NCBI GenBank assembly: GCA_008501735.1
Contig: QQUF01000053.1
Span: 1 to 64,000 of the forward strand
Length of the DNA stretch: 64,000 bases
Direction: 5' to 3'
Source of the DNA: Calditrichota bacterium
GTDB taxonomy: Bacteria; CLD3
Made by a program: the position numbers and the translations under genes. The notes below the pieces were generated by a model. That model did no database searches and was not told the origin of the DNA. It worked only from the letters and a program-made list of their open reading frames with translations. Below are positions 22,294 through 50,116 of this stretch, one piece after another; within the stretch, counting starts at the first letter, position 1, and the number at the start of each line of letters is the position of its first letter.

Positions 22294-25200
22294 TTATTCT
22301 ATGCCACCTTTGGCATTTATGATTTTATAATCTTTCTTTTTACGTTGAAAAGTTCTTTTAGGAAGCCCTGAAAGAGTAGAAGCTTTTTCAATGTTCCAGT
22401 CTGCACGATTTAGGTAGTGAATTATCAAATTCCGCTCAAATTTACTGACTAAGGTTCTTAAATCACCAGTCTTTTCTTGAAGGGAAACGGAGTCTGGCAT
22501 TGAGGAAAGTTTGCGTAGTTTCTCTGGTAAGTGCTTAATCTCAATTTCATCTTCATTACAAAGAACAACAGCTCTTTCGATAATATTTTCGAGTTCCCTT
22601 ACATTTCCCTTCCAAGAGTGGTAGGTAAGTGCATCAATGACAGGTTCACTTAACTTTTTTATATTTTTTCTGTTCATTCTTTTTGTGAAAATTTTCAAGA
22701 AATGCTCAGCCAGAAGTGGAATGTCATCGATGCGTTCAGAAAGGCTTGGAGTCTTAATCTTTATCACATTAATTCGGTAAAAAAGGTCTTCTCTAAAGTT
22801 ACCTTTGGTAACTTCTTCTTCAAGATTTTTGTTTGTTGCACAGACGAATCGAACGTCAATTTTTATTGGTCTCGAGTCACCAACTTTTGTGATTTCTCTT
22901 TCTTGCAAAACCCGCAAAAGTTTAACTTGCATTAATTGAGACATCTCTCCAATTTCGTCAAGAAAAATTGTGCCATTGTTGGCGTGTTCAAAAATCCCTT
23001 CTTTGTCCCTAATTGCTCCTGTAAACGAGCCTTTAGTGTGTCCAAAAAGCTCACTTTCCAAAATTGATTCAGGTAAAGCTCCGCAGTTCACAGCCACAAA
23101 TGGAAATTTATTTCTAATCGGGTCATTGTAGTGAATCGCCTTTGCGACGAGTTCTTTACCAGTTCCACTTTCACCTTCAATGAGAACTGTAACAGGAGTT
23201 GCAATTATGCTTTCCAAAAGCTGGAAAATTTCAGCCATTTTGGGACTCTTGCCAATAATCTTACTGAATTTGTAGTTAGAAGTAACTTCCTGTTTGAGTG
23301 TTTTGTTTTCAATAAGTAGGTTTGAGTGTTGTTTGGAATTTTCCAAAGCAATTACTGCAAGGTTTGCAAAAGACTCCAGAAACTCAACGTCTTCGTCGGT
23401 AAAAATGTGCTCAAAATCTCTACTGTCAACGTAAAGTGAGCCGATTACTTTTTCACCTTTGGAGTAAAGTGGTGTGCAAATTAGAGACAAAGATTGAAAA
23501 TTTGCGATGCTCTCAACTTGGCTAAACCTAAAATCTTCGTGAACATTTGGGCAGAAAATTGTCTTCACTTTTTCAATTGATTCTTTTACAACTGTCGAGC
23601 TAAAGTCTCTGTCTTCTTTGGTGAGCTGCCAACTTGCTTTGGTTTCGAGTTGGTTGTTTTTGTCTGTCAGAATTACCAAACCTTGCTCCGCTCCAAGTGT
23701 AACAACGAGCAAATTTAAGATTTCACTTAAAAGTTGGTCTAATTCCAAAATTGAATTTATTTTTTGGCTGACCTCAAAAAGGATTTTTAATCTTTCACCT
23801 GAAAGGTTCATTTTAACCTGTTTAGTTGGTAATTCTTCTTTCTTTGGTGTGTTAGAATTGGCACTATTTTTTAAACTACTTAAAATACTTTTGTCAATTT
23901 TGACACACTGGTTTTTTATCTCTAAGGCTCTTAAAGGGGAACCTTTTGTTTTCTCTAATTGATAAAGTAGTGCCAAAAATTGCACTTTCAAAATTGTTTT
24001 TTGTTCGTATTCTGAAATTTTTGATTCAAGGAACCTACGACACTCTTGAACTTGGTTTTGTTCTAACAAAAATTTTGCTTGCTGAACGAGTAAGCCAACG
24101 AGTTGCTTTTCTTGATTCTGCTTTTTTGCAATTTCAATTCCTCGTTCCACAAAACTTTCGGCTTCGTGAATTTTTCCCGACTCTTTGTAAATTTCGCTTA
24201 GTTTGAGATAAATTTCCGAGTGTTTTTCACGATTTTCCGCTTTGTTGTAGAATTGAAGTGCATGAAAAAAGGCATCTTTACTTTTAAAGAAATTCTCTAA
24301 TTTTTGCTCAATTTCTCCAACAAAAAAGTAAGCTTCACCAACTTCAGCATAATTTTTAATTTCAATTTTTAACTCAATTGCCTTTTCAAAAAACTCTCTT
24401 GAACTTTCAAATTCAGTTTTCAAAAAATAAATTTCTGCGATGTTGCTCAAAAGGTTTGCAGTTTGATTTTTATCCGCAAGTTCTTCTTGAATTTTTAAGG
24501 CTTGTTTGAAGTAGTCAACCGAAGTTTGAAGGTCATTTTTGAAGTAAAAAAGAACTCCCAAATTTGTAAAAGAAAATGCCATTTCTCTTCGGTTGTCCAT
24601 TTGTTTCTTAAGCTCAAGGCTCTTTAAATGGAAATTCTCCGAAAGCTCCCATTTACTTTGTTTCCGATAAAGTTCGCCCAAGTTGTTGTAAACAAGTGGA
24701 AGGTGAGCGAGGTCTCCGATTTCAAGAAAAATCTGCTCGGAGTCCTTGTAAAATTTTTCTGCTTTCTCGAACTCTCCAAGCAAATCATTCAAACTTCCAA
24801 GGCTGTTTGAGACAAGAGCAACTTTGAGTTTGTTACCAAATTTATCGGCAAGTTTAAGGCTTTGCGAAAAATATTTTTCTGCTTCTTCAAATTTTCTTTG
24901 GTAAAATTTTACTTCGCCTGCGAGACTAAAAATTGTTGGAATTTCAGGGTCTTTGGAATTTAAGTCTAAGAAACTTTTGCAAGTATCTTCTGCTTCTGAG
25001 AAGTTTGAAAGGTAGATTTCGATTTGAGTAAGACTTGAAACAGATTTGAGCGAAGGACTTTTTTCTAACAAATTTTTGAAAATACTTTTTGCTTCTTCGT
25101 AGTTTCCTTCACGTTGAAAAGCTAAACCTTTTTGGTAGGAATTAGGTTCGTTTTTGAGAATTTCAATCGCTTCCTTGTTCTTCCCTAAGGCAAGTAAAAA

Positions 25201-27108
25201 ATCTGCAAAATCTTCTTTAAATTTGGCTGTAACAAATCTTTTGACACTTAAAGCCTGTCTGTAAAAAATTTCTGCTAACTCAAAATTTTTCTCATTTGAC
25301 ATTTTTTGTGCAGCGTAAAAGCTAACTTCAAATTTACGTTTTGAGTCTTTTGAGTTTGCTAAGTGGAACGCTTCAAACTCTGGATTTTGTGGAAATCTTT
25401 CCTTTGCAAAATCAGCAAGTCGGTCATTTTTAAGAGTTATAATTTGCTCGGAAACAAAACTTCTAAGTCCTTGATTTTCAATTTTGAATTTACCTTTTCG
25501 GGAAGAAAAAATTCTTTTAGAAAGAAGACTCTGCAAAGTGCTTTCATTAAAATTTTCCTCAAAGGTTTTAGCCAAAAGTCTAAGAGTGTTTTCGTCAAGT
25601 TCAAGTTCCCAAAGGCAGGCAAGTTTGAAAGATTCTTTTTCGTTTTCGTTCAGCGATTCCCAAAGAAGCAAATTAGCTTCCTCTAAAAATGGTTTGAAGT
25701 TGAAGGTCTCAAATTTTTTGTGGTTAAATTCTAATCCAATTTCAGAGATTTTAAGAACTTCATTTTGGAAGAAAATTTCAATCAGAAGTCTGTTCTGGCT
25801 TGGATTTCCAACGGTTAGTTTGAAAAGGCTTTCATTAAAATTTTGAATCTTTTCAGGAAAAGTGTAAAGAATTTCACAAATTTGCTTAGTGTGTTCTTCA
25901 AAATTTAAATTTTGTAACTCAAAGTTAAAGTCTGTATTCTTTAACTTTTGAGAAGTTTCAAAACAAATTAAAAGTCTAAGTTCAGGGACAGTTCTTTGCA
26001 AAAAGTCTAAAAGTTTTTGAGTTTTGTCATCGAACTTTTGAGTAAAGTGGAAAAGGATTTTAGACTTAAGATTTACCAAAAAATCTTTAATTCTGAAAAA
26101 TGTGTTAATCTCATTTTCGGGCGTTTCAACTTCAATCGTAAGAGAACTTAAAGACTCGAAACTTGGGTTTTCAAAATTCTGAATTTTAGCTTGAATTTGA
26201 GCTTGTTTTTTGGCTTCCTCAAAAAGTTTTGTCTTTCCAGCTCCTTTTGTTCCGAAAATATTTACGGTTGTAATTTTTTCCAATCTTAAAATTGAATTTT
26301 TAAGAGTTTCAAGTTCGGCTTCTCTTCCGAAAATTTTGCTTTCGCCCGTAGCAAATTCGAGTGTTTTCGGGAGAATTTTTGCCAAACGGTAAACTAAATC
26401 CGAACTACTTTGAAGCCTTGCAGTCGGCTTCTTTTCCAAAAGTTGCAAAATCAAACTTGCTAAAGAATCAAAAACTTTTGAATTTATTTCTTGGGGATTC
26501 TTAGGCTTTTGGGAAATGTGAGCTTTTAGAACTTCGGTAATTTTTCCGTCAAAAGGAGTTTGGTTTGTGAACATTTTGTAAAGAAGACAACCAAAAGAGT
26601 AAAGGTCAGCTTTCTTGTCAACTTTTCGCTCTTGCAAAATTTCGGGAGCGACAAAGAAAATGCTTCCTTGTTTCGCCGTTGTTGAAGACTTGGAGCTAAA
26701 ACCAAAATCAAGAATTTTAGGATTCCCTTTTGAGTCAAAGAGAATGTTTTCAGGTTTTAAATCGAAATGAGTAACGTCGTTTGAGTGAATGTAGTGAAGA
26801 CCTTGAGCAATTTTTAGTGCAACAGAAATTCCAGTTTCAATTTTAGTAGAAAAATCAAGACTTTTGCTTTCCAAAAGTTCCATTGTAAAAAAACTTTCGG
26901 AGTCTGAAAAACCGTAATCGAAAACACTGCAAACGTAAGGGTGATTGAGCTCTTTTAAAATTGAAAATTCTTGTTTGAGTTCTTCGGAGTGAACTTTTAG
27001 AATTTTTAATGCAACTTCGTTCTGCGAAAAAGTGTCAAGAACTTTGTAAACAGTTCCGCTTCCGCCCGAACCGAGTTTTGAGAGAATTTTATACCTGTTT
27101 CCAATCAA
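22294..27108 (-). CDS. Giant signal-transduction protein: Ser/Thr kinase, ATPase, TPR, GAF, sigma-54 activator, Fis HTH
   Basis: One 1604-residue chain carries a eukaryotic-type kinase (K35, DFG 134-136, APE 154-156), with the HRD motif reading HFD at 114-116. An ATPase with Walker A GTKGAGKTK (286-294) follows, then a long TPR array (about 600-1085) and a GAF domain (about 1105-1260). The C-terminus is a sigma-54 activator domain (Walker A 1312-1319, GSFTGA loop 1360-1365, Walker B FLDEIG) and a Fis-type helix-turn-helix. It should sense a signal through GAF/TPR and open sigma-54 promoters. The start is TTG, 3 bases after the dioxygenase stop, with no ribosome site, so translation is probably coupled. 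Its DNA target is unknown. Confidence 0.93.
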   Translation of the reverse strand: MIGNRYKILSKLGSGGSGTVYKVLDTFSQNEVALKILKVHSEELKQEFSILKELNHPYVCSVFDYGFSDSESFFTMELLESKSLDFSTKIETGISVALKIAQGLHYIHSNDVTHFDLKPENILFDSKGNPKILDFGFSSKSSTTAKQGSIFFVAPEILQERKVDKKADLYSFGCLLYKMFTNQTPFDGKITEVLKAHISQKPKNPQEINSKVFDSLASLILQLLEKKPTARLQSSSDLVYRLAKILPKTLEFATGESKIFGREAELETLKNSILRLEKITTVNIFGTKGAGKTKLFEEAKKQAQIQAKIQNFENPSFESLSSLTIEVETPENEINTFFRIKDFLVNLKSKILFHFTQKFDDKTQKLLDFLQRTVPELRLLICFETSQKLKNTDFNFELQNLNFEEHTKQICEILYTFPEKIQNFNESLFKLTVGNPSQNRLLIEIFFQNEVLKISEIGLEFNHKKFETFNFKPFLEEANLLLWESLNENEKESFKLACLWELELDENTLRLLAKTFEENFNESTLQSLLSKRIFSSRKGKFKIENQGLRSFVSEQIITLKNDRLADFAKERFPQNPEFEAFHLANSKDSKRKFEVSFYAAQKMSNEKNFELAEIFYRQALSVKRFVTAKFKEDFADFLLALGKNKEAIEILKNEPNSYQKGLAFQREGNYEEAKSIFKNLLEKSPSLKSVSSLTQIEIYLSNFSEAEDTCKSFLDLNSKDPEIPTIFSLAGEVKFYQRKFEEAEKYFSQSLKLADKFGNKLKVALVSNSLGSLNDLLGEFEKAEKFYKDSEQIFLEIGDLAHLPLVYNNLGELYRKQSKWELSENFHLKSLELKKQMDNRREMAFSFTNLGVLFYFKNDLQTSVDYFKQALKIQEELADKNQTANLLSNIAEIYFLKTEFESSREFFEKAIELKIEIKNYAEVGEAYFFVGEIEQKLENFFKSKDAFFHALQFYNKAENREKHSEIYLKLSEIYKESGKIHEAESFVERGIEIAKKQNQEKQLVGLLVQQAKFLLEQNQVQECRRFLESKISEYEQKTILKVQFLALLYQLEKTKGSPLRALEIKNQCVKIDKSILSSLKNSANSNTPKKEELPTKQVKMNLSGERLKILFEVSQKINSILELDQLLSEILNLLVVTLGAEQGLVILTDKNNQLETKASWQLTKEDRDFSSTVVKESIEKVKTIFCPNVHEDFRFSQVESIANFQSLSLICTPLYSKGEKVIGSLYVDSRDFEHIFTDEDVEFLESFANLAVIALENSKQHSNLLIENKTLKQEVTSNYKFSKIIGKSPKMAEIFQLLESIIATPVTVLIEGESGTGKELVAKAIHYNDPIRNKFPFVAVNCGALPESILESELFGHTKGSFTGAIRDKEGIFEHANNGTIFLDEIGEMSQLMQVKLLRVLQEREITKVGDSRPIKIDVRFVCATNKNLEEEVTKGNFREDLFYRINVIKIKTPSLSERIDDIPLLAEHFLKIFTKRMNRKNIKKLSEPVIDALTYHSWKGNVRELENIIERAVVLCNEDEIEIKHLPEKLRKLSSMPDSVSLQEKTGDLRTLVSKFERNLIIHYLNRADWNIEKASTLSGLPKRTFQRKKKDYKIINAKGGIE

Positions 27109-27111
27109 CTT

Positions 27112-28059
27112 TTACTTTAGGAGCATCATTTTTTGAGTTTGAGAAAACTTTCCTTTTTCATTCTCAACTTCAATTTTGTAAAAATAAAGTCCGTTTGCAC
27201 TTTTTCTACCTTTTGAGTCTTTTCCATTCCAAGCAGCGTTGTGATAACCAGAACTTTTAGTTCCATTTTCTAAAACGGCGACAGTTTTCCCCATTTCATT
27301 GAAAACGATGAGTTTTACTTTTGAAGTTAAAGGAAGCGAGTAACGAATTGTAGTTTCGGGGTTGAAAGGGTTCGGATAATTTTGGTGAAGCACAAAAAAG
27401 TCAGGTTTGAGTTCTTCGTCGTTAATTCCAACGGTTGCCATTGTGTTCATTTTTATGTCAAAAGTTCCGTACAAATCATCGCCTTGAGTTGTCAAAGGAA
27501 TTATTCTTTCAGCAGCAGAAGGGTCGGAAGCCCAAGGGTCAATTGAAATGTAAGGGTCATTTTGAAAGTAAAGTTGAGTAACAAGAATTGTGTTGTCAGG
27601 AGTTACAACTCGAAAGTGAATGTGAGCAGGTCGGAAGTTTGCTCCGTTCAAATAAAATCCAGGTTTAATAGATTCAAAACCATAATTTCCTTGTGCGTCA
27701 GTAAGCATTTGTCCACGTAAATTGTAAGGGTTTGTGCTTGCTGGAGTGCATTGTTCAAAAACACTGTAACAACCAGAATCATTAGCTTGCCAAACGTCAA
27801 CAATCGCTCCTTGAACAGGGGTTATGCAGTCGTCAGCGTAAACTTTGCCTGAAATGAAAAGTCGAGTTCCGGGTTCAGAAGTGTCAGCTAAAACGTTCGT
27901 CGTTGGCGAACCTGCGGAAAAGAAAGGTCCTTGAATGTCGCTTGTTGTCAAATCGCAGTCGTCAGCTAAAAGTAACTTCGGAGCAATCATTGCTGAAAGT
28001 CCCGTTACGGCACTCAGTTTCAAAAATTTTCTTCTGTCTAAATTGTTGTTAGAATTCAT
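27112..28059 (-). CDS. Intradiol ring-cleavage dioxygenase-like protein with Tat signal and T9SS sorting domain
   Basis: This 315-residue protein starts with a twin-arginine signal (DRRKFLKLSAVTG). The central domain matches intradiol dioxygenases: QGPFFSAGSP, VDVWQAN, NPYNLRG, PGFY and RPAHIHF, which hold the expected iron ligands (two Tyr, two His). Family enzymes cleave catechol-type aromatics; exported versions may act on lignin- or humic-like phenolics. Residues from about 225 on form a type IX secretion sorting domain with HQNYPNPFNPETTIRYSL, ending in MMLLK. Tat export combined with a T9SS tail is unusual. The gene precedes the giant regulator by 3 bases, so the two are probably cotranscribed. 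The substrate is unknown. Confidence 0.85.
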   Translation of the reverse strand: MNSNNNLDRRKFLKLSAVTGLSAMIAPKLLLADDCDLTTSDIQGPFFSAGSPTTNVLADTSEPGTRLFISGKVYADDCITPVQGAIVDVWQANDSGCYSVFEQCTPASTNPYNLRGQMLTDAQGNYGFESIKPGFYLNGANFRPAHIHFRVVTPDNTILVTQLYFQNDPYISIDPWASDPSAAERIIPLTTQGDDLYGTFDIKMNTMATVGINDEELKPDFFVLHQNYPNPFNPETTIRYSLPLTSKVKLIVFNEMGKTVAVLENGTKSSGYHNAAWNGKDSKGRKSANGLYFYKIEVENEKGKFSQTQKMMLLK

Positions 28060-36820: not shown

Positions 36821-39800
36821 TTGAAAATAATCTTAACTCTTTTTTGTTTGTTTGTAAGTTTTGAGGCATTTGCTTTTGCACCTGAACCTCACAACGAGAC
36901 AGGAAAAATTTTCCCAATTCAAGCAAATTTTTCACACCACAATCAAGCTAAGCAGCAAGAACTTTTGAAATCTCAAGTTTGGCAAAACTTCACACGAGGC
37001 AAACAGAACTGGGTCGCAATTTTTGATGAAAATTCAGGACTTCCTGAAAAGGCATTCGGAAAACCTTTTGCAGGGAATTGGAGCAGAATAGTCAACGAAA
37101 AAAATGCGGAAACAGTCGCTTGGGATTTTTTGAATTCAATCAAAAATGAATTTGGGTTAGAACTTTCGCAATTCAGTTTCGCAGTTACAAATAATTGGTT
37201 AGGCGACTACGCAGTTTTTTACAAACAATTCGTAAACGGTTTCGAGGTGCTTGATTCAAAAATGTTTGTTGTTTTGACGGCTGACGGAAAGGTTGCAAGA
37301 TTTGGTTTCTTGATGGGAAAAGACAGAGTTTTTTCAACTGATTTTGCACTTACGACAAAAGAAGCGGAGTTTTTCGCTCCAATTGGTTTAGTTGGCTTTG
37401 ACGAAAAAACCGATAAAATTACTGTCGAAAATGAGTTTGTTTACGTTCCAGTTTATGGAAAAGACACTGAGATTTTGGATTACAAACTCGCTTACAATTC
37501 TTTAGTTCCTGTTTCAAAACATTACGGAAATTGGCAGACTTACATTGACGCAAATTCAGGCGAAATTCTTCGCCGTTTTAACACAGTGCATTTCGGAACA
37601 ATTGATGGACAAATCACAGGTGATACAGAACTTGTGAATCCTCAGAGCATTCCACAAGTTTTCCCTTACAAACATTTGCGAATGAGCATCAACGGCGATT
37701 TTGTTACTACAGATTTACAAGGGAATTTTGCTTACACGACAACGACTTCAGGACCACAACAAGTTAGCATTCCGTTGCAAGGAACTTGGGTTAGAGTGAG
37801 AAATTCGCAAAATGGAAACCAAACTCCAACTTTGAATTTAACAACCGTAACTGACAACGAAACTGTAAACGTAAATTTGGACTCAGGAAGTTCAACCTTT
37901 AGCGAACGAGATGGATTTTTTCACACAAACGTAGCTCACGATTTTATCAAAGGAATTGACCAAACTTTCACTGGTGTTGACTACTCAATGAATTGCAACG
38001 TTGAGCTTAACGGTTCTTGTAATGCTTTTTGGAATGGAAGTTCGATTAGCTTTTTTAGAGCTGGAGCAAGTGGAGGAAGTCAATGTCCTTCGATTTCAAG
38101 AATTGCAGGAGTTGTTTACCACGAATACGGTCACGGAATTAATTCAACTCATTACAGTCCTTTTGGAATGCCTGGCGATATGCACGAAGGAATTGCAGAT
38201 TACACAGCAGCAACAATTGAAAATCAGCCTTTAGTCGGAGTCGGATTTAACGGACCAAATTCTTTTCTAAGGAACATTAATAATCAAAATCAATATCCTG
38301 ATGACATCGTTAATGAAGTTCATTACGACGGATTAATTATTGCTGGAGCTTTGTGGGATTTGAGGCAGTTAGTTCCTGTTTCAAGAGCAGATTCTCTTCA
38401 CCACTTTGCTCGTTACGGAAAAGCAGATAGTTTCTTTGATTACTTTGTTGACTTAATCACTTCTGATGATAATGACGGTGATTTGACGAATGGAACTCCT
38501 TATTCTGACGAAATTTTTGAGGCTTTTGGTAAGCACACAATTTCTTCTGATATTGAAATTACTCACGACAAAATTCCTGACACAGAAGATTCGCAAAATG
38601 CTTATCATTTTACAGCAGATTTTCAGACGAATATTTTTGGAATTGGAATTAATGTCGCTCAGTGTAGTATCTTTTACTCTATTGACGGAGGTGCAAACTT
38701 TTCCTCTGCTCCGATTACAAATTTGATTTCAACAATGTTTGAAGGACAAATTCCCGCACAACCAAGTGGAACAACAGTTTCTTATTATATTAAAGCACAA
38801 GACGTTTTGAGCCTTGTTGTTACTGAACCAGAAGACCCAACAACAGAACTTCTTACATTTTTTGTAGGTTCTGACCAAGTTGAGCCAGAACTTTCAGTCG
38901 AAATTCCATTTAAAAGTACAATCGAAAACACAGGTCTGATTTCACAAAAAAGCATAGTTAATGCTTTTGATAATTTAGGGCTTCAAGGTGTAAACTTTGC
39001 GACTGGTTTAGTGCATCACAGAGTCGGAATAGGAAGTTTCCAAACAAACTCAATTACTCAACTTTCTGACACATCGTTTTCCGCTGAAATTGATTTGGGA
39101 AGCAATTCCTACCAAATTGGCGATGTTGTTGAATATTTTTTTACAGTTGACGACGTTGCGTTAACGCCAAACACAGGAAGACTTCCACAAGATCCAAATG
39201 AATTTCTGACTTTTACAGTTTCAAATGTCGAAACAGTTGAAGGTTTTGAAGACGGAATAGCTAAATGGAATTTGGACGCTCCTTGGGTGATTTCGAATCA
39301 ACAGTCTTATTCGGGAGATTTTTCTCTTGATGAAAGTCCTGGTACAGGTTACAACGACAACGCAAACGTTAGTGCAACTTTGCTTGATGGTTACAATCTT
39401 TCTGGTTACACTGTCGCTGATAACGTAAAACTAACTTATTGGGCAAGGCATTTTTTGAAAATTGGACACGATGATTTTCTTTTTGTAGAAGTTACAACTG
39501 ACAACTGGCAGAATTTTACAAAAGTTGATACACTTTCTGGACCTTCAAGTTGGAAACAACACGTTGTTTCGCTTAGTCCTTTTGTCGGAAATCCGGACGT
39601 TAAATTTAGGTTTAGGCTTGTAACTGACGGAGTTGGAAACGGACCTGCAACGAATCCTTTTGGTGTAATCTTAGATGAAATCAAATTGCGAGTTGACGGA
39701 GTTATTGTTTATGGAGATGCAAATGAAAACGGAATTCTTGAAGAAATTGATGCAGATTTAGTTTTGGAGTCGGTTGTAAAAAACGTTAATTTCGTGCCTG

Positions 39801-39910
39801 AACAAAAAGTTGTAACTGACGTTGACGGAGACGGTTTTGTTCGAGTAAACGACGCAAGTTTGATTTTGCAAAAAGCTAAAGGATTGATTAATAAATTCCC
39901 AATTGAGTAA
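36821..39910 (+). CDS. Secreted M36 (fungalysin-type) metallopeptidase with dockerin-like C-terminus
   Basis: This 1029-residue exported protein has a signal peptide (LFCLFVSFEAFA), an FTP-like propeptide over about residues 45-240, and an M36 catalytic domain. The zinc site is HEYGH at 434-438 with E456 in MHEGIADY. Beta-rich modules follow, then a C-terminal dockerin-like pair of calcium loops (GDANENGILEEIDADLVLE and DVDGDGFVRVNDASLILQK) and a FPIE tail. The tail matches the end of the protein encoded at 21101-22189. It likely degrades extracellular protein while held at the surface. The start is TTG, fixed by AAGGAG at 36809-36814 with 6-base spacing. Confidence 0.9.
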   Translation: MKIILTLFCLFVSFEAFAFAPEPHNETGKIFPIQANFSHHNQAKQQELLKSQVWQNFTRGKQNWVAIFDENSGLPEKAFGKPFAGNWSRIVNEKNAETVAWDFLNSIKNEFGLELSQFSFAVTNNWLGDYAVFYKQFVNGFEVLDSKMFVVLTADGKVARFGFLMGKDRVFSTDFALTTKEAEFFAPIGLVGFDEKTDKITVENEFVYVPVYGKDTEILDYKLAYNSLVPVSKHYGNWQTYIDANSGEILRRFNTVHFGTIDGQITGDTELVNPQSIPQVFPYKHLRMSINGDFVTTDLQGNFAYTTTTSGPQQVSIPLQGTWVRVRNSQNGNQTPTLNLTTVTDNETVNVNLDSGSSTFSERDGFFHTNVAHDFIKGIDQTFTGVDYSMNCNVELNGSCNAFWNGSSISFFRAGASGGSQCPSISRIAGVVYHEYGHGINSTHYSPFGMPGDMHEGIADYTAATIENQPLVGVGFNGPNSFLRNINNQNQYPDDIVNEVHYDGLIIAGALWDLRQLVPVSRADSLHHFARYGKADSFFDYFVDLITSDDNDGDLTNGTPYSDEIFEAFGKHTISSDIEITHDKIPDTEDSQNAYHFTADFQTNIFGIGINVAQCSIFYSIDGGANFSSAPITNLISTMFEGQIPAQPSGTTVSYYIKAQDVLSLVVTEPEDPTTELLTFFVGSDQVEPELSVEIPFKSTIENTGLISQKSIVNAFDNLGLQGVNFATGLVHHRVGIGSFQTNSITQLSDTSFSAEIDLGSNSYQIGDVVEYFFTVDDVALTPNTGRLPQDPNEFLTFTVSNVETVEGFEDGIAKWNLDAPWVISNQQSYSGDFSLDESPGTGYNDNANVSATLLDGYNLSGYTVADNVKLTYWARHFLKIGHDDFLFVEVTTDNWQNFTKVDTLSGPSSWKQHVVSLSPFVGNPDVKFRFRLVTDGVGNGPATNPFGVILDEIKLRVDGVIVYGDANENGILEEIDADLVLESVVKNVNFVPEQKVVTDVDGDGFVRVNDASLILQKAKGLINKFPIE

Positions 39911-41881: not shown

Positions 41882-42865
41882 ATGTTTTTGAAAAAGTTTT
41901 TAACCACACTTACAGTTGGAATTTTAGCTACAACAACTTTAGCTGCGGGTAAATTTGGAGATGAATTTTACTCGAATGGAGTTGGAGCAAGAGCATTGGC
42001 TTTGGGAGGAGCTTTTGTTTCGTTTGAAGGTGATGTGAATTCTGTTTTTTGGAATCCGTCTGGAATTGCAAAAGTCCGTTCGTTCGGAGTTTCTGTAATG
42101 CACGCAGAAAAATTTGGTGGCGAATTAATGTTTGACCATTTTTCAGTTCTTTATCCAGTGAGTGATTTTACTTTTGGGTTTTCCTACGTTCGTTCAAGTG
42201 TTGACGGAATTCTTGACACGAGAAATGGAAGTGTAACTCGGAACTCAGATGGACAAATCACAAACATTGATTTTACAAACATCAGTGAATTCTCAGACAC
42301 TGACCAACTTTTCAATTTCGCTTTTGGAAGAGAGTGGAATGAAAAACTTGCCGTTGGTGCAAATTTTAAAGTGATTCACCGTTCAATTGCTGAATTTTCG
42401 GCTAATGGTTTTGGAATTGATGTTTCAGGGCTTTACAAAATCCGTGAAAATTGGCGAGTCGGAGCAAACCTTCAAAATGCAACAACTACAATTGTAAGTT
42501 GGGACAAAGGTGCTTCTAAAGAATACATTCGACCACTTTTGAAAGTTGGAACCTCTTACGATTTGATGAAAAACAGAAATCGTTTTACTTTTGCACTTGA
42601 TGCAGATAACCGCTTCGAAGGAAGAGATTATTCTTCACAAGTTAGCTTAGGTGCTTTGAGTTTGGATTTCAGAATTGGTGTTGAATATTCTTTTGCAGAG
42701 TTAGTTTTTTTGAGGTTTGGAGTTGATGATGTTGAGCGTTTGAATTTTGGTGCTGGATTTAAGATTGCAAAGTATTTCACAGTTGATTACGCAGTGTCTG
42801 AAGGTGGTCAAAGCGAAAATTTAGGACGTGCCCACAGATTTAGTTTGAACTTCCTTTTAAATTAA
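41882..42865 (+). CDS. PorV/PorQ-family outer membrane protein
   Basis: This is a 327-residue outer-membrane beta-barrel protein with a signal peptide (ILATTTLAAG). It matches the PorV/PorQ (UPF0164) family: GVGARALALGGAFVSFEGDVNSVFWNPSGIA is the diagnostic N-terminus (here split over residues 33-64), followed by alternating beta strands ending HRFSLNFLLN. PorV-type proteins shuttle T9SS cargo to the attachment complex; relatives also serve other export roles. It lies 18 bases after manC and ends at a hairpin. The role could be in T9SS or in polysaccharide export next door. Confidence 0.85.
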   Translation: MFLKKFLTTLTVGILATTTLAAGKFGDEFYSNGVGARALALGGAFVSFEGDVNSVFWNPSGIAKVRSFGVSVMHAEKFGGELMFDHFSVLYPVSDFTFGFSYVRSSVDGILDTRNGSVTRNSDGQITNIDFTNISEFSDTDQLFNFAFGREWNEKLAVGANFKVIHRSIAEFSANGFGIDVSGLYKIRENWRVGANLQNATTTIVSWDKGASKEYIRPLLKVGTSYDLMKNRNRFTFALDADNRFEGRDYSSQVSLGALSLDFRIGVEYSFAELVFLRFGVDDVERLNFGAGFKIAKYFTVDYAVSEGGQSENLGRAHRFSLNFLLN

Positions 42866-43053: not shown

Positions 43054-43437
43054 ATGACCTCACCGAAATGCATCTTAATTGTTGACGATGAACCCGAAAT
43101 TAGAGAAGTTTTAAGTACGTATTTAGTTACGAAAGAGAATTACTCTGTTGAAGAAGCAGGCGATATTCGAGAAGCAACTGATGTTATACGCAAAACACGA
43201 GTAGATATTGTCTTTTTAGATATTCAACTTCCAGGTGTTCACGGAATCGAAATTCTCAAAGTTCTAAAAAAAACTGATAAGAGTATTAAAGTTGTGATGA
43301 TGTCTGGTTATGCAACAGAAGAAATTGCAAAAGAATCCTTAGAAGAAGGTGCTTTTGATTATCTAAGAAAACCTTTCGAACTTTCCCAAATTGACAGAAT
43401 ATTAGCATCTATCGAAATATCCGATATGGAAGTATAA
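43054..43437 (+). CDS. Single-domain response regulator (receiver)
   Basis: This 127-residue CheY-like receiver has no output domain. The phosphoacceptor Asp56 sits in FLDIQLPG, the acidic pair is D11-D12, Ser84 occupies the switch position and Lys106 is in LRKPFE. No histidine kinase is nearby, so it must take its signal from elsewhere. It lies 53 bases upstream of the export lipoprotein gene, behind a good promoter, which suggests it controls polysaccharide export by protein contact. Stand-alone receivers next to Wzc-type genes are plausible allosteric regulators, but that is inference. Confidence 0.93.
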   Translation: MTSPKCILIVDDEPEIREVLSTYLVTKENYSVEEAGDIREATDVIRKTRVDIVFLDIQLPGVHGIEILKVLKKTDKSIKVVMMSGYATEEIAKESLEEGAFDYLRKPFELSQIDRILASIEISDMEV

Positions 43438-43489: not shown

Positions 43490-46117
43490 ATGGCAATTAA
43501 TTTAAAAGAAAAGATTTTACTCTCTTCTTTACCTATTTTACTTTTGGGTTGCCAAAGCGGTAAAATGCCAAATTACTTTTGGTCGTATGAAACTGGTCCG
43601 ACCAATGCAGGTAATTACCACAGTGTAGCAACTGGTGATTTTAATTCCGACGGTAACTTAGATATTGTTGGTGGTAATTTTAATCCTGGTGGAATTCTTG
43701 TTTGGTATGGCAATGGTAATGGAAGTTGGAACGAAGTTAATACACCTTCAGATTTAGGTGATATTAGGGACTTAGCTTGCGGAGATATAAATAATGACGG
43801 CTTTGACGACATTATTTGTACATCTTTTGGTGATGCTAAGGGAGTTAGGGTTTTCCTTTCTAATGGAGATGGAACTTGGAGATTAGCTGCTTTCCCAACT
43901 GAAAAGGGAACTTTTGAAGGTCTTGAAGTTGCGGATATGAATTACGATGGGAATCTTGATGTTATTGCAGCAAATACTTCTTCATCTGGGCAAAGTGATG
44001 GTGGTGTTAATGTTTGGTTTGGAGACGGGAAAGGAAGATTTTCAAAAAATTATGGTCCTCAATCAACAGGTGTTTACCGAGATGTCGCAATTGCAGATTT
44101 TAATAATGATGGAAAACTTGATATAGTTTCGACACGTTGGGGAGTTGACGGAGAAGTAAAGGTTTGGTACGGAACAAATCGTGCTGAATGGTATGCAGGC
44201 TCAAGCCCAGAAACTGTCGGTAGCTTTATTGGAGTTACAACAGGCGATTATGATGGCGACGGAAGAATTGATATTTGTGCTACTGCTTACCACGAAGGTG
44301 TTTACCTTTGGTATCAAGACGAAAATGGAAAATTTACAGAACCTTGTAGGCTTTTAGATTATGGACATTGGTGGGAAGTTCAATCAATAGATTTAGACTT
44401 TGACGGAGACCAAGACATAGTTACAACCTCATTTGGTGAAGATGGAGTTAAGATTTTTAGAAATGATTGGAAATGTGATTGGCACGATTGGAGTAATCTG
44501 ATTGACTCGGAGAAAACTTATTATGGGCTTACCTATGGCGATTTTAATAATGATTCAAGACCTGACTTAGCTGCTGCTAATTACAGCCAAGGTGTTCACA
44601 TTTGGTTACAAGTTTATGATGAAAATCGTTATGATTCAGGACCACCAAGACCTGTTGAAACAGATTCTTTAGATTTGTGGTTTATCGAAAAAGGGACTGC
44701 AACTTATGGTGAGACAGTTTACAGTGTCTTCTTTGATACTGGAATTGCTGACATTCGTCCTGACCAAGAGCCAATTTTGGAGAAAGTTGCTCAAGTCATT
44801 AATAAGTATCCGAATAGTAAAGTTACTTTAGAAGGACACGCAGATTTCAGAAATATTAATACGACTGAGTATCCAAGTAACTTAGAACTTTCTGAGGCAA
44901 GAGGGAATGCTGTAAAAGATGCTTTGATGCCACGACTGAAATCTCAAAGAACAAGATTTATTGGTCCAGTTGGTTGGTCTGATACAAGACCAAAAGTCTT
45001 TGACCCAAATGCTCCAGAAGAGTTGCAACTTAACAGACGTTGCGATATTATTATTGAAAAGGTCAAAAGAACTCCTGATTACGAGTATTTGCAACGAGTA
45101 AATAAATTTGAATACGCAGATTCTTTAGATGTTGGAGTTATTGACGAAGACTTGTTGCTTGGAGAAACTTCTAAACCAAAAGGGCTTCATAATGCAACTC
45201 TTGACCCTTACCAAAATAAAGTATTTACTAAAGCAAGTGGAATCCCTGAATACATCATTGGCTCTTTAGATGTTTTAAATATCATAATTTGGACAGGTTT
45301 GGATAAAAAGGAATTTGAAGTAACGGTTGGAAATTCAGGCGATGTTTTTATTCCGAATGTTGGGGATGAAAAATTTTATGTAAAAGGTAAAACTTCTACT
45401 CAAGTCGAAAATGAACTTTACGAAATTTTGGAAAGTGTTCTCAAAAAACCAAATGTTGAAGTTGACGTAAAATATTATTTCGCTCATCAATCTTCAATTC
45501 TTGGTGAAATTCGTGATACTGACGATGATGACACAGGTCCAGGACGTTATCCTTTGACAGGTCGTGAAACACTTTTAGACTTCATCTCGAATCACGGAGG
45601 TCCAACGAAAGATGCTGATTTAACTCAAATTCAAGTTATTCAGGAAAATGGACAATCTCTTTATTTTAACCTTTGGGCAACAATTGTAGAAGCAGATATT
45701 ACTCAAAACCCAGTTATGGATGCAAATCAAATAGTTTTTATCCCTTCTCTTACTACGAGTAGTAGATTTGTCTTCGTTTTTGGCGAAGTCAATAATCCGG
45801 GTTTAATCGAAATCAAAGAATCAAGCGGTTTACCTCTTATTGAATGTATCGCTCACGCAGGTAATTTTACTCGTGAAGCATTACAAAGTGATATCAGAAT
45901 TATTCGTGGTGATATTGATAAACCAAACATACTTGAAGCAGATATTCACAAATTGCTTAAGGAAGGTGATTTTAGTCAAAATGTGAAACTCTTTGATAGA
46001 GATATTGTTTTTGTTCCGCAAACGACTTATTCTTCAACGACTGAATTTATTAATTCGTTGAATCCGACTTTGTCTTTGTTGCAAACATTCTTCCTCGTAA
46101 ATCAGGTCTTTAAGTAA
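43490..46117 (+). CDS. Fusion lipoprotein: FG-GAP propeller, OmpA domain, Wza-type polysaccharide export domain
   Basis: This 875-residue lipoprotein (lipobox LLGC, Cys21) combines three modules. Residues about 40-380 hold seven FG-GAP/VCBS repeats with calcium loops such as DFNSDGNLD and DYDGDGRID, enough for a seven-bladed propeller. Residues about 400-525 are an OmpA-like peptidoglycan-binding domain (LEGHADFR, then ELSEARGNAVKDAL, then NRRCDIII). The C-terminal third is a polysaccharide export (Wza/Poly_export) domain from EYIIGSLDVLNIIIW, followed by SLBB-like regions (SILGEI, FVFGEVNNPGLIEI). It should form the outer-membrane polysaccharide channel of the system, with the Wzc-like partner 21 bases downstream. 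No ribosome site is seen. Confidence 0.9.
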   Translation: MAINLKEKILLSSLPILLLGCQSGKMPNYFWSYETGPTNAGNYHSVATGDFNSDGNLDIVGGNFNPGGILVWYGNGNGSWNEVNTPSDLGDIRDLACGDINNDGFDDIICTSFGDAKGVRVFLSNGDGTWRLAAFPTEKGTFEGLEVADMNYDGNLDVIAANTSSSGQSDGGVNVWFGDGKGRFSKNYGPQSTGVYRDVAIADFNNDGKLDIVSTRWGVDGEVKVWYGTNRAEWYAGSSPETVGSFIGVTTGDYDGDGRIDICATAYHEGVYLWYQDENGKFTEPCRLLDYGHWWEVQSIDLDFDGDQDIVTTSFGEDGVKIFRNDWKCDWHDWSNLIDSEKTYYGLTYGDFNNDSRPDLAAANYSQGVHIWLQVYDENRYDSGPPRPVETDSLDLWFIEKGTATYGETVYSVFFDTGIADIRPDQEPILEKVAQVINKYPNSKVTLEGHADFRNINTTEYPSNLELSEARGNAVKDALMPRLKSQRTRFIGPVGWSDTRPKVFDPNAPEELQLNRRCDIIIEKVKRTPDYEYLQRVNKFEYADSLDVGVIDEDLLLGETSKPKGLHNATLDPYQNKVFTKASGIPEYIIGSLDVLNIIIWTGLDKKEFEVTVGNSGDVFIPNVGDEKFYVKGKTSTQVENELYEILESVLKKPNVEVDVKYYFAHQSSILGEIRDTDDDDTGPGRYPLTGRETLLDFISNHGGPTKDADLTQIQVIQENGQSLYFNLWATIVEADITQNPVMDANQIVFIPSLTTSSRFVFVFGEVNNPGLIEIKESSGLPLIECIAHAGNFTREALQSDIRIIRGDIDKPNILEADIHKLLKEGDFSQNVKLFDRDIVFVPQTTYSSTTEFINSLNPTLSLLQTFFLVNQVFK

Positions 46118-46138: not shown

Positions 46139-48478
46139 ATGGCACAATATGATTTAAATTTAATTGAAACCTTACGGTCGCTTGAAAAACGTTGGAAAGT
46201 AGTTGCTGCTTCAATTTTTATCATTGCAATCGCAGTTTGGTTTATGACCGAAGATCCTCCTCCTTATTACATCGCTTCTGCAAGTGTAAAAATTACTCAA
46301 TACAACACAATCACAAGTGCTGTATTGAAGGATAATTCTTTTGTTTCACGTAGGACGGATAATTTGGAAACCCACTCTAAGGTACTTTCGAGCAATAATT
46401 TGCTGATTTTACTTGCAAAAAAAATGGGTTACATAGAAAGAAATAAAACGGTTGAAGAAATTGCAGACAACCCAAAAGACCTTGAGCAAATTCGTAGAAT
46501 GAGAGAGATAATTTGGAATGAGAAAGAACCTAAAACTAATATTATCAAAATCTTCTCAAAATCTTTTGATAGAAAAGAATCAATAAAACTTGCTAATGGT
46601 TTAGCTGACATTTTTAAGCAATACAACATTGACGAAGCGAATAATCAAATCGTTGAGACTAGAAAATTTATTGAAACTCAAACAATAGATTTCAGAAAAA
46701 AACTTGACGAACAAGAAGGACAGATGAACACTTTCATCTCTGAGCACATTGATAACATCAGTTTAGGGGAAGATGAACTTTATGAAGTCCAAAAAGAACT
46801 CACACGAATCAATGCGATTATTAGTAGTCTCCTTCCACAGCTCCAACAACTTGAGTATCGTTTAAGTAGCGGAAACCTAAATTACATTGATTGGGTTACA
46901 GTTGACTTAGGTAATAACGATATGAGCCTTGAAATGCTCAATCAAGAAGTTTTGGGTTTACAGTTAAAGAAAATTCAGTTATTGATTTATCATAAACCAG
47001 AATCTCCTGAAGTCCTTGATTTGGAATACAGAATTAATACTTTAATCCAAAATATGGCAAAAGAATACAGGAGTATTTTTGATAATTTAGTCGAAAGACG
47101 TGAAGAACTTTTACTTAAACTTAACATCATTCCAGCAAATGATGCAGTCTTGCAAAAATTGAGACGTGAAACTAATCTTTTAAAAGATACTTATGCAAAA
47201 TTTAGAAATGAACTGCAATCTGCTTATATTCGTGAGTCGGAGAAAATAGTTGAAGTTTCGGTTCTTGAAGAGGCTGCTGACCCAACGGAAATTAAAGACA
47301 CTACTCGTTGGCAAAAAACATTTCTTGGAGCAATTGTAGGGCTGATCCTTGGTGTTGTTTTGGCTTATCTTTTTGAAACGTTTGATACGTCAATTGACAG
47401 AGTTGAAGATGTCGAAACTTACATTGGAGTTCCAGTTCTTGGAACGATTCCGCATATTAATGTTGAAGAGACAATTGAAAAAATGGTTGCAATGCATCCA
47501 GACTCCGAAACTAATAAGAACCTGAAGTACTACGCGAGTTTGGTAACTCATTACCAGCCCAAATCTGCTGTTTCAGAGAGTTATAGAAAAATTCGTACTA
47601 ACCTTGACTTTATCAAACTTCAAAGAGAAGGTAAAGTTTTTATGGTAACAAGTACGACTCTTGACGAAGGTAAAACTACTTCGATTGCAAATCTTGCGGT
47701 AACAATGGCTCAAATGGGGAACAAAACTTTATTGATATCTTGTGACTTTAGACGTCCAAGTGTTTACCGACTTTTCGGAATTGATAGAGAACCTGGGTTG
47801 ACTAATGTTTTGCTCGGAAATTATCAGTGGGAAGATGTTCTTCGTGGAATTACAGATGTTTTTATGGGTGATATGATTATGCTTGAAGAAGTAATTACCA
47901 ACCCTGGACTTGATAATTTAAATATAATTACTGGTGGAAGTATTCCTGCAAATCCATCTGAGCTTCTTGCTTCAAATGAGATGTCTAACTTTCTCGATAA
48001 AATGCGAGATGAGTTTGATATAATTTTGATTGATGCTCCTCCTGTTTTACCTGTAACTGATGCGGCAATTTTGGCTAACAAAGTTGATGGAATTATTATG
48101 GTTTACCAAGTAAGCAAAGCTGCAAGAACATCGTTGAAACGAGCCGTGAATCACTTACAGAACGTTAACGGAGATGTTTGGGGAGTAATTCTTAATGACG
48201 TTGCATCTGAAATCGGAATCTTCTCAGAAGACAAAGATTACTACACAAGATACTACACGGAAGCAACTCCAACCGATGATTCACTTGTCGGTCTGATTAC
48301 TTTCAAGGCAAAAGAAATCTATGGAAAAGTTCAGGGTAAATTCAAAGACAGTCAAGCCGAAGGTAAGATATCAGATGGCTCAGACAAGGTTCTTGGATTT
48401 TTCGATAAAATCTTTAGTCCTTTCCCTTCCAAAAAGAAAAAAGATTCAGAAGATGAAGATGACGAGTTTAAAGTTTAA
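46139..48478 (+). CDS. Polysaccharide co-polymerase with BY-kinase domain (Wzc-like)
   Basis: This 779-residue inner-membrane protein sets chain length and powers export of a capsule or exopolysaccharide. It has a Wzz domain with membrane segments near 20-36 and 396-412, a periplasmic coiled coil between them, and a C-terminal bacterial tyrosine kinase. The Walker A region STTLDEGKTT (505-514) keeps the lysine but lacks the usual proline. Walker A' is ISCDFRRP (D536) and Walker B is ILIDAPP (D632). A tyrosine cluster (Y701, Y702, Y705, Y706) is the likely autophosphorylation site. It lies 21 bases after the Wza-type lipoprotein gene, as expected for partners. Confidence 0.93.
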   Translation: MAQYDLNLIETLRSLEKRWKVVAASIFIIAIAVWFMTEDPPPYYIASASVKITQYNTITSAVLKDNSFVSRRTDNLETHSKVLSSNNLLILLAKKMGYIERNKTVEEIADNPKDLEQIRRMREIIWNEKEPKTNIIKIFSKSFDRKESIKLANGLADIFKQYNIDEANNQIVETRKFIETQTIDFRKKLDEQEGQMNTFISEHIDNISLGEDELYEVQKELTRINAIISSLLPQLQQLEYRLSSGNLNYIDWVTVDLGNNDMSLEMLNQEVLGLQLKKIQLLIYHKPESPEVLDLEYRINTLIQNMAKEYRSIFDNLVERREELLLKLNIIPANDAVLQKLRRETNLLKDTYAKFRNELQSAYIRESEKIVEVSVLEEAADPTEIKDTTRWQKTFLGAIVGLILGVVLAYLFETFDTSIDRVEDVETYIGVPVLGTIPHINVEETIEKMVAMHPDSETNKNLKYYASLVTHYQPKSAVSESYRKIRTNLDFIKLQREGKVFMVTSTTLDEGKTTSIANLAVTMAQMGNKTLLISCDFRRPSVYRLFGIDREPGLTNVLLGNYQWEDVLRGITDVFMGDMIMLEEVITNPGLDNLNIITGGSIPANPSELLASNEMSNFLDKMRDEFDIILIDAPPVLPVTDAAILANKVDGIIMVYQVSKAARTSLKRAVNHLQNVNGDVWGVILNDVASEIGIFSEDKDYYTRYYTEATPTDDSLVGLITFKAKEIYGKVQGKFKDSQAEGKISDGSDKVLGFFDKIFSPFPSKKKKDSEDEDDEFKV

Positions 48479-48490
48479 AAAAGTTATTTG

Positions 48491-50116
48491 ATGGATTTAA
48501 ACGAACTTGTCGGAAATGTTCCGGGTGGAATATATTTATTAATTTCACCCATTTTGGTTCTTTGCTTAATCACTTTCATTTTAATTAGATTAAAATCTTT
48601 TCAAACTCACTATCTCATTCTTGGCGGCTTAGTTGCCTGTTTAATTTGGGGATACAAATTTTATGAGTTGAGACAAGATTATCCGCCGACTCCAGACCCA
48701 AAACGCATTTTAGTTTTCCCTTTCAACAATTTTGAGCAAGATAAAAATTGGCTTCCTTTTGCTTTTTGGGAAAAAATAATCCGAGATTTAAACCGAAAAA
48801 CTGATAGAAATTGGATTGTTTACAATTCGGATTCGATTTTTGAATCTTTTGACTCAAGGTTTTTTGCTTCTCAAGATTACCGCAAAAAGTTTGCCGAACT
48901 TGTAGATGCTGACATTGTCGTTTACGGAATTTTAGTTCCAGATTCTTCCGAATATCTTGGAGAAATTTCTTTTAAAATCGTGGAAGGGACAGAAAAAGAT
49001 TTTGAGCCTTTTTTGCTTAACAAAAATAATTTTACAAAACTGACTGACGAGTTTGCTGAAAAAATTATTTCAGAAGCAAAAATTGAAAATGAAAATCCGA
49101 AATTTGAAGACGAAATTGAAAAATTTTATTCTTTACCTTTACCACTTGAAAGCTATTACCAAGCTAAAATTCTTTTTAAAGAAAATAAAATTGACTACGC
49201 AAAGACTTTAACAAATGAGCTTCTCCAAACCTTTCCGAATTTTCCTCCAGCTTTGATTTTACTTGGAGAAATAAATCTACAAATTACTTACAGAGATGTT
49301 CGAAAAGATCTTCGAGGAATGGATGTTTACTACAAAGAAGGCAGAACTATTCTGCGAAAACTTTTTGAGAAAGTACCAAATTCTTTGGATTACTGGTTCT
49401 TTAAAACACAATTCCATACGACCTACAAAGAATGGACGACAGTTGAAGAATATTTAAAATTGTTGTTTGAGAAAACTTTAAGTGACGCAAGATTTTATCG
49501 AATTTTGTACAATCTTGCTCCGTTTCGGTGGGAAAATTTTGAAAAGATAAGGGTTCACAACTACCCAGAAATTTTGGAAAAATTAGTTTTTCTTGACCCT
49601 GCTTCAATTAGCTACAGAATTCTTTTTACCGATTTTTACTTGGAAAAGAACCTGCTTGACGATTATCAAACGAATATTAAAAAGAGCCAAAAAATTATTG
49701 AAGAAGCGAGTCAACTTCGTTCAAATAATGTTCCGATTTTAATGCGTTTGGGAAAAGTTTACTTGCATAAAAATGAACTTGAAAAAGCACTTGAAAATTA
49801 CCACAACGTTGTTTCTTTAGATTCGACAATTTCAGATGCTTACTATAATTTGGGCATTGCTACTTTTCAAAAAAGAAGATTTAAGGAGTCGGAGAAGTTT
49901 TTATTAAAAGCCATTCAAATGACAAAACACTTGGATTCTTACTTTTATCTTGCAGCACTTTACAATGAAACCGAAGATAAGGAGAATGCTCTTAAAGCAA
50001 TAAATAAAAGAATTCTTTTAAGTCCAGGACCTTCTGACCTTTATATAGAAAATGCAAGACTTTATAAAGATCTAATTCTTTCTAAAAGTACAAAACCTAC
50101 CGAATTACCTTATTAA
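48491..50116 (+). CDS. Membrane-anchored TPR protein of the export cluster
   Basis: This 541-residue protein has two N-terminal membrane segments (about residues 13-55), then a domain starting KRILVFPFNNF that resembles the fold found before TPRs in adenylate-cyclase-like and TolB-like proteins. The C-terminal part holds several TPRs, for example AYYNLGIATFQKRRFKESEKF. A TTG lies one codon upstream, but the ATG is the more likely start. Its function is not known; position immediately after the Wzc-like gene (12 bases) and before the operon terminator suggests a scaffold in polysaccharide assembly. Confidence 0.75.
   Translation: MDLNELVGNVPGGIYLLISPILVLCLITFILIRLKSFQTHYLILGGLVACLIWGYKFYELRQDYPPTPDPKRILVFPFNNFEQDKNWLPFAFWEKIIRDLNRKTDRNWIVYNSDSIFESFDSRFFASQDYRKKFAELVDADIVVYGILVPDSSEYLGEISFKIVEGTEKDFEPFLLNKNNFTKLTDEFAEKIISEAKIENENPKFEDEIEKFYSLPLPLESYYQAKILFKENKIDYAKTLTNELLQTFPNFPPALILLGEINLQITYRDVRKDLRGMDVYYKEGRTILRKLFEKVPNSLDYWFFKTQFHTTYKEWTTVEEYLKLLFEKTLSDARFYRILYNLAPFRWENFEKIRVHNYPEILEKLVFLDPASISYRILFTDFYLEKNLLDDYQTNIKKSQKIIEEASQLRSNNVPILMRLGKVYLHKNELEKALENYHNVVSLDSTISDAYYNLGIATFQKRRFKESEKFLLKAIQMTKHLDSYFYLAALYNETEDKENALKAINKRILLSPGPSDLYIENARLYKDLILSKSTKPTELPY

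Follow-up and report, generated by a model that had tools for sequence, protein, structure and literature searches.

Wza-type translocons, octameric outer-membrane channels that export polysaccharide together with a PCP partner, are held at the outer membrane by a lipid and a C-terminal helix, and their periplasmic Poly_export ring is directed towards a co-polymerase. Wza and Wzc together form a trans-envelope channel of 360 Å (PMC12881504). A survey of OPX proteins defined the Wza_C segment and divided the family into classes, including Class 1, which has a median length of 378 aa, and GfcC-containing classes, among which 2C and 2D carry the GfcC module ahead of Poly_export (PMC9603273). The two published OPX surveys searched describe either Poly_export, SLBB, GfcC, and Wza_C modules or short, beta-barrel-bearing OPX proteins, and neither OmpA nor FG-GAP appears in their main text. 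A search of open-access full text likewise returned no paper joining FG-GAP with Wza or polysaccharide export, and a description may exist elsewhere.

The window examined here, a stretch of 64,000 nucleotides from a Calditrichota bacterium (assembly GCA_008501735.1, contig QQUF01000053.1, positions 1 to 64,000), encodes a known channel type combined with a conserved N-terminal module not found described in open-access literature. The initial annotation knew of no described system with FG-GAP, OmpA, and OPX parts in one protein, and the combination is indeed absent from the open-access literature searched.

Domain architecture of the fused protein

The gene (43490-46117, +) consists of one reading frame of 875 aa with an ATG start and no internal stop. 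FG-GAP_3, OmpA, Poly_export, and SLBB/SLBB_2 each pass their curated Pfam cut-offs within this one frame. The extent and the domain reading given in the initial annotation are right. Its proposed lipoprotein start was also recovered: a signal peptide with the lipobox LLG-Cys21-Gln (43490..43552, +) was called by pattern (LLGCQ) in a regex scan of the sequence, and the lipobox Cys is an invariant column in an alignment of five fused proteins from five phyla.

Seven FG-GAP repeats follow (residues 31-386; 43580..44647, +), with FG-GAP_3 matching in seven stretches (E 3e-40), and are predicted to form a seven-bladed beta-propeller from Pfam, a loop scan, a low-confidence model, and a profile match. 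Calcium-type loops of the pattern Dx[DN]x[DN][GS] begin at residues 50, 99, 149, 203, 253, 301, and 351, a spacing of 48-54 residues, and the seventh loop ends in Ser rather than Gly. An AlphaFold model of the full protein, built on an alignment of three sequences, has a mean pLDDT of 42 and does not resolve the OPX part; at this low confidence it predicts 28 strands across residues 29-376. The propeller is of the calcium-blade kind and putatively calcium-binding. Its profile matches CRTAC1 (5e-13) and integrin alpha chains, and it has the Dx[DN]xDG loops and the seven-repeat propeller in common with FG-GAP/calcium-blade propellers such as those of integrin alpha, Psathyrella velutina lectin, PilY1, and CRTAC1. 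Unlike these, it is joined to a bacterial outer-membrane exporter and belongs to a family of its own.

The OmpA C-terminal-like domain occupies residues 412-523 (44723..45058, +; Pfam match at 414-502, E 1.6e-10) and aligns with MotS (9ljk), TssL (4b62), and Acinetobacter baumannii OmpA (3td3) in the PDB. It has a significant sequence match to the OmpA_C-like peptidoglycan-binding domains of A. baumannii OmpA, Pal, MotB/MotS, and TssL, with which it shares the GHxD and LSxxR residues, and it shares with Pal the setting in an outer-membrane lipoprotein. In contrast to all of these, the domain here lies mid-chain in an export-channel subunit.

The OPX core begins with Poly_export (PF02563, residues 586-660; 45245..45469, +), which matches at E 4e-12 with 46.5 bits against a cut-off of 28. 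Two SLBB domains come next (residues ~670-842; 45497..46015, +), supported by the alignment to Wza and by two stretches each of PF10531 and PF22461 (SLBB/SLBB_2, E 5e-16), which end at residue 842. A phmmer alignment to E. coli Wza (PDB 2j58) spans residues 612-862 (E 3e-17) and extends to chain residue 342 of 2j58, thereby covering 17 of the 34 Wza_C residues. The survey calls Wza_C where homology covers at least 10 of the 34 residues in 2j58 326-359, and relies on HHpred rather than the phmmer used here (PMC9603273). The corresponding C-terminal segment (residues 846-875; 46025..46114, +) is Wza_C-like and predicted to be an outer-membrane helix from the 2j58 alignment and the low-confidence AlphaFold model, which places helices at 850-856 and 860-874. 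By sequence, the amphipathicity of the helix is modest.

The protein thus shares with Class 1 OPX (E. coli Wza) the Poly_export domain, the SLBB domains after it, the Wza_C-like tail, an adjoining Wzc-type autokinase, and a lipoprotein signal, which is a feature of most but not all Class 1 members. Class 1 is restricted to export, SLBB, and Wza_C modules, whereas here ~540 additional residues lie between the lipid and Poly_export. Because the FG-GAP propeller and OmpA precede the core, the protein is filed as a variant of Class 1 rather than an ordinary member. Class 2 OPX (KpsD, GfcC-containing) resembles it in having an OPX core plus an added module, but the addition there is GfcC, which was not detected in the window protein, and here it is FG-GAP and OmpA.

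Distribution and relationships of the fusion

The initial annotation named an assembly error joining separate genes as one case that would undo its reading. In G001, a genome of the same family, the gene is present at 67-69% identity and is split only at contig ends, a situation that could mimic separate genes; nothing else was found that would speak for an artefact. One of its contigs (C6) has the signal peptide, propeller, and OmpA, another (C18) has OmpA and OPX, and they share 499 bp of the fused gene at 96.4% identity. Uninterrupted frames of 838-845 aa with the same domain order occur in G099, G386, G387, G388, and G158, and these independent genomes already refute the error, leaving its chance negligible. 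As a separate observation, the overlap between the G001 contig ends (L021/L022) is merely 96.4% identical over 499 bp, which indicates mixed strains in that assembly.

An OmpA-OPX profile was used to search a broad sample of 386 genomes, and the long frames among the best OPX hits were then read, with phyla taken as the ranks given by the genome collection. The complete combination of FG-GAP, OmpA, and OPX occurs in nine genomes from three phyla, FG-GAP with OPX in the absence of OmpA in seven genomes from two phyla, and OmpA with OPX in the absence of a propeller in two genomes (G080 and G350). In phylum-wide searches, fusions are present in 2 of 9 genomes of the window's phylum, 6 of 8 in the phylum of G099, and one of two in the phylum of G158, where the second is cut at a contig end. 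The phylum of G145 has six fusions and one partial among 18 genomes, and several of its genera lack the OmpA domain. The propeller-bearing G221 was recovered with its OmpA-OPX sisters G080 and G350. The protein of G099 (841 aa) matches window residues 16-528 and 565-864 with 36% end-to-end identity, and that of G158 (838 aa) similarly matches over both the N-terminal and OPX parts. The N-terminal domain order recurs in G001, G099, G386, G387, G388, and G158, with all three domain kinds confirmed by Pfam in G387 and G388, while G145 (763 aa) and G221 (760 aa) have the propeller and OPX only. The architecture is therefore rare but not unique. The initial annotation, which knew of no description, agrees with the open-access papers searched, but the protein is no lone oddity: five phyla have homologous fusions or simpler forms.

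The tree of OPX cores (48 rows) has a branch with 99/99 support that places every fused member of the family, whether with propeller, OmpA, or both, on the same side. Seven unfused-looking rows lie there too, among them G296, which is truncated at a contig end. A single-origin clade of fused cores was mildly rejected by the AU test (p 0.025 for propeller fusions and 0.045 with OmpA fusions included), although this is not decisive because the groups were named after the tree had been seen and several branches are long. Taken as it stands, the rejection would imply repeated domain loss, or fusions that were exchanged or remade.

The fused propellers form one family. They score 287-568 bits, and free FG-GAP propellers reach no more than 155; part of this gap is due to the profile, for which six of the fused proteins were used. 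They also lie together on one side of a branch, with weak support (61/52). Genomes G386 and G387 also encode a free lipoprotein propeller related to the fused one. Free-standing lipoprotein propellers of this kind lie at L089 (1399-2784, -) and L090 (1405-2649, -), in genomes that carry the fusion.

A scan of genome contigs selected OmpA-only patterns and, among full relatives, named only bacterium isolate SJ803, the record with the G001 gene; a scan of viral contigs returned propeller matches, none of them spanning the OPX part. A different OPX fusion was observed at L071 (3762-6203, +; 814 aa), in which Pfam places TPR repeats and AMIN domains ahead of Poly_export, and the protein at L072 (1511-3943, +; 811 aa) clusters with it in the tree of OPX cores. 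AMIN domains, too, are of a wall-binding type, and the AMIN-OPX fusion in L071 suggests that wall tethering of OPX proteins may have arisen more than once. An AMIN-like N-terminus considered in L007 was dropped as it had no Pfam call.

Gene neighbourhood

A gene for a Wzc-like polysaccharide co-polymerase/tyrosine autokinase of 779 aa (46139..48478, +) starts 21 bp downstream of the fused gene, with NCBIfam TIGR01007 above its cut-off and Pfam matches to Wzz, GNVR, and AAA_31. The Wzc-like partner anticipated in the initial annotation is accordingly encoded next door, and such a gene adjoins the 3' side of the fused OPX gene in nearly all loci that include that stretch; G158 has no adjoining co-polymerase. 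Beside the OmpA-less fusions at L112 (1031-4246, -) and L113 (6506-9766, +), the Wzc-like co-polymerases are 1072 and 1087 aa long, about 300 aa longer than that of the window.

A stand-alone receiver domain (43054..43437, +; Pfam Response_reg, 6e-31) lies 52 bp upstream of the fused gene. Co-conservation with this response regulator, put forward as a check in the initial annotation, extends only to the same-family genome G001, hence it is no general partner. The block of response regulator, fused OPX, Wzc-like, and TPR genes, the last at 48488..50116 (+; Pfam TPR), is kept in G001, and the genes upstream of the block differ. A PorV/PorQ-family gene (41882-42865, +; NF033709 above cut-off) suggests a type IX secretion lineage; it was rejected as a partner, being absent upstream in G001.

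No Wzy, flippase, or glycosyltransferase gene was identified in the scanned part of the window. In G388 a Wzy_C gene comes after that of the co-polymerase, and so it does in G080, where the match is just under the Pfam cut-off. The window genome encodes three OPX proteins, the fused one and two ordinary ones, and has four Wzy_C matches elsewhere. One ordinary OPX gene is clustered with a Wzy_C gene and a 760-aa ORF.

Other genes of the window include one for a 1604-aa protein combining a Ser/Thr protein kinase, TPR, GAF, and a sigma-54 activator with a Fis-type HTH (22294-27108, -), an intradiol-type dioxygenase with a FlgD_ig/CHU_C type IX secretion tail (27112-28059, -), and a secreted-looking protein of 1029 aa (36821-39910, +) in whose translation a zinc-protease motif, HEYGHG, and a dockerin-like pair of calcium repeats at the C-terminus can be read.

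Proposed function and alternatives

The window protein is probably a Class-1-like (Wza-type, OPX) outer-membrane translocon subunit with an N-terminal periplasmic extension comprising a wall tether and a propeller crown. Homology to Wza that reaches into Wza_C and the conservation of the Wzc-like gene across phyla argue for this role. The lipid on Cys21 would keep the protein at the outer membrane, the C-terminal helix would be part of the membrane pore, and the Poly_export and SLBB domains would form periplasmic rings towards the Wzc-like co-polymerase of the adjoining gene. Given the Wza-type topology, the domains between the lipid and Poly_export should be periplasmic and lie around the channel, where OmpA would bind peptidoglycan and so hold the trans-envelope channel in place within the wall. 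The propeller would serve as an outer crown and scaffold, most likely binding glycan (the growing polymer or the wall) or partner proteins. Such a glycan- or protein-binding role is likely because a sugar-binding lectin and integrins are among the related propellers, and the exact ligand is a guess. Points against this reading are the low confidence of the structure model, the scanned part of the window with no Wzy, flippase, or glycosyltransferase gene, the co-polymerase missing beside the G158 gene, and, as discussed below, the variation of the OmpA domain among relatives.

In A. baumannii OmpA, an Asp/Arg pair binds diaminopimelate (PMC6572160), and Asp452 (GHAD) and Arg471 (LSEAR) of the window protein align with this pair in 3td3. 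Because both residues are present, the OmpA domain of this protein is best read, from its sequence, as a tether to the wall. The Arg is retained in all relatives compared. The Asp is still found in the window protein and in G001 and G388, and is replaced by Gln, Ser, Glu, or Gly in G099, G386, G387, G389, G158, G080, and G350. Since most relatives have lost it, anchoring may not be family-wide, and the tether may be weakened or lost in them. The peptidoglycan anchor of the initial annotation is thus plausible for the window protein, but may not extend to the family as a whole. These replacements, and the propeller-OPX proteins of G221 and several genera of the G145 phylum that have no OmpA domain, would also fit a vestigial domain, or one that acts as a spacer or in assembly and anchors nothing, with the propeller as the conserved functional addition and OmpA lost where unneeded. 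We regard this as unlikely, if a serious alternative, as the intact pair in three proteins and the Arg in all of them speak against it, as do G080 and G350, which retain OmpA with OPX and have no propeller.

Two other arrangements appear less probable still. The protein may be a non-exporting scaffold that binds wall and glycan, uses OPX-type domains, and works alongside one of the genome's two ordinary OPX proteins; these proteins, the Wzy_C gene and 760-aa ORF clustered with one of them, and the scanned stretch around the fused gene, which has no Wzy, would suit such a division. However, the fused gene has its own Wzc-like kinase gene, kept across phyla, and the Wza_C-like segment is present, so that a scaffold of this kind seems improbable. 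Surface-exposed lipoproteins exist, and the propeller might face outwards, serving as an adhesin or covering the pore like a lid. Propellers with integrin-like calcium blades are commonly found outside the cell (PMC3123361), which would agree with that placement. Yet the propeller is flanked by the N-terminal lipid and a domain of the peptidoglycan-binding type, whose place must be the periplasm. Poly_export, periplasmic in Wza, comes next, and for the propeller to be outside, the chain would have to cross the outer membrane one extra time. The adhesin role raised in the initial annotation is disfavoured by this position between lipid anchor and wall-binding domain, and a surface propeller is the least probable of the functional readings.

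Returning to the translocon reading, a bolder and more tentative extension is that these proteins represent an old and hitherto undescribed translocon class, common to several uncultured phyla, whose channel is fastened to the wall and in which a calcium-dependent propeller ring handles the polymer or sites secretion. To our knowledge, the known Wza and Wzc parts do not explain what positions a channel that runs from the inner membrane through the wall to the outer membrane, or what stabilises it in the peptidoglycan. A subunit with its own wall-binding domain makes the positioning of the channel in peptidoglycan directly testable, and the natural deletion variants, lacking either OmpA or the propeller, allow the role of each domain to be told apart. 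The published OPX classes have missed such large N-terminal modules of uncultured lineages.
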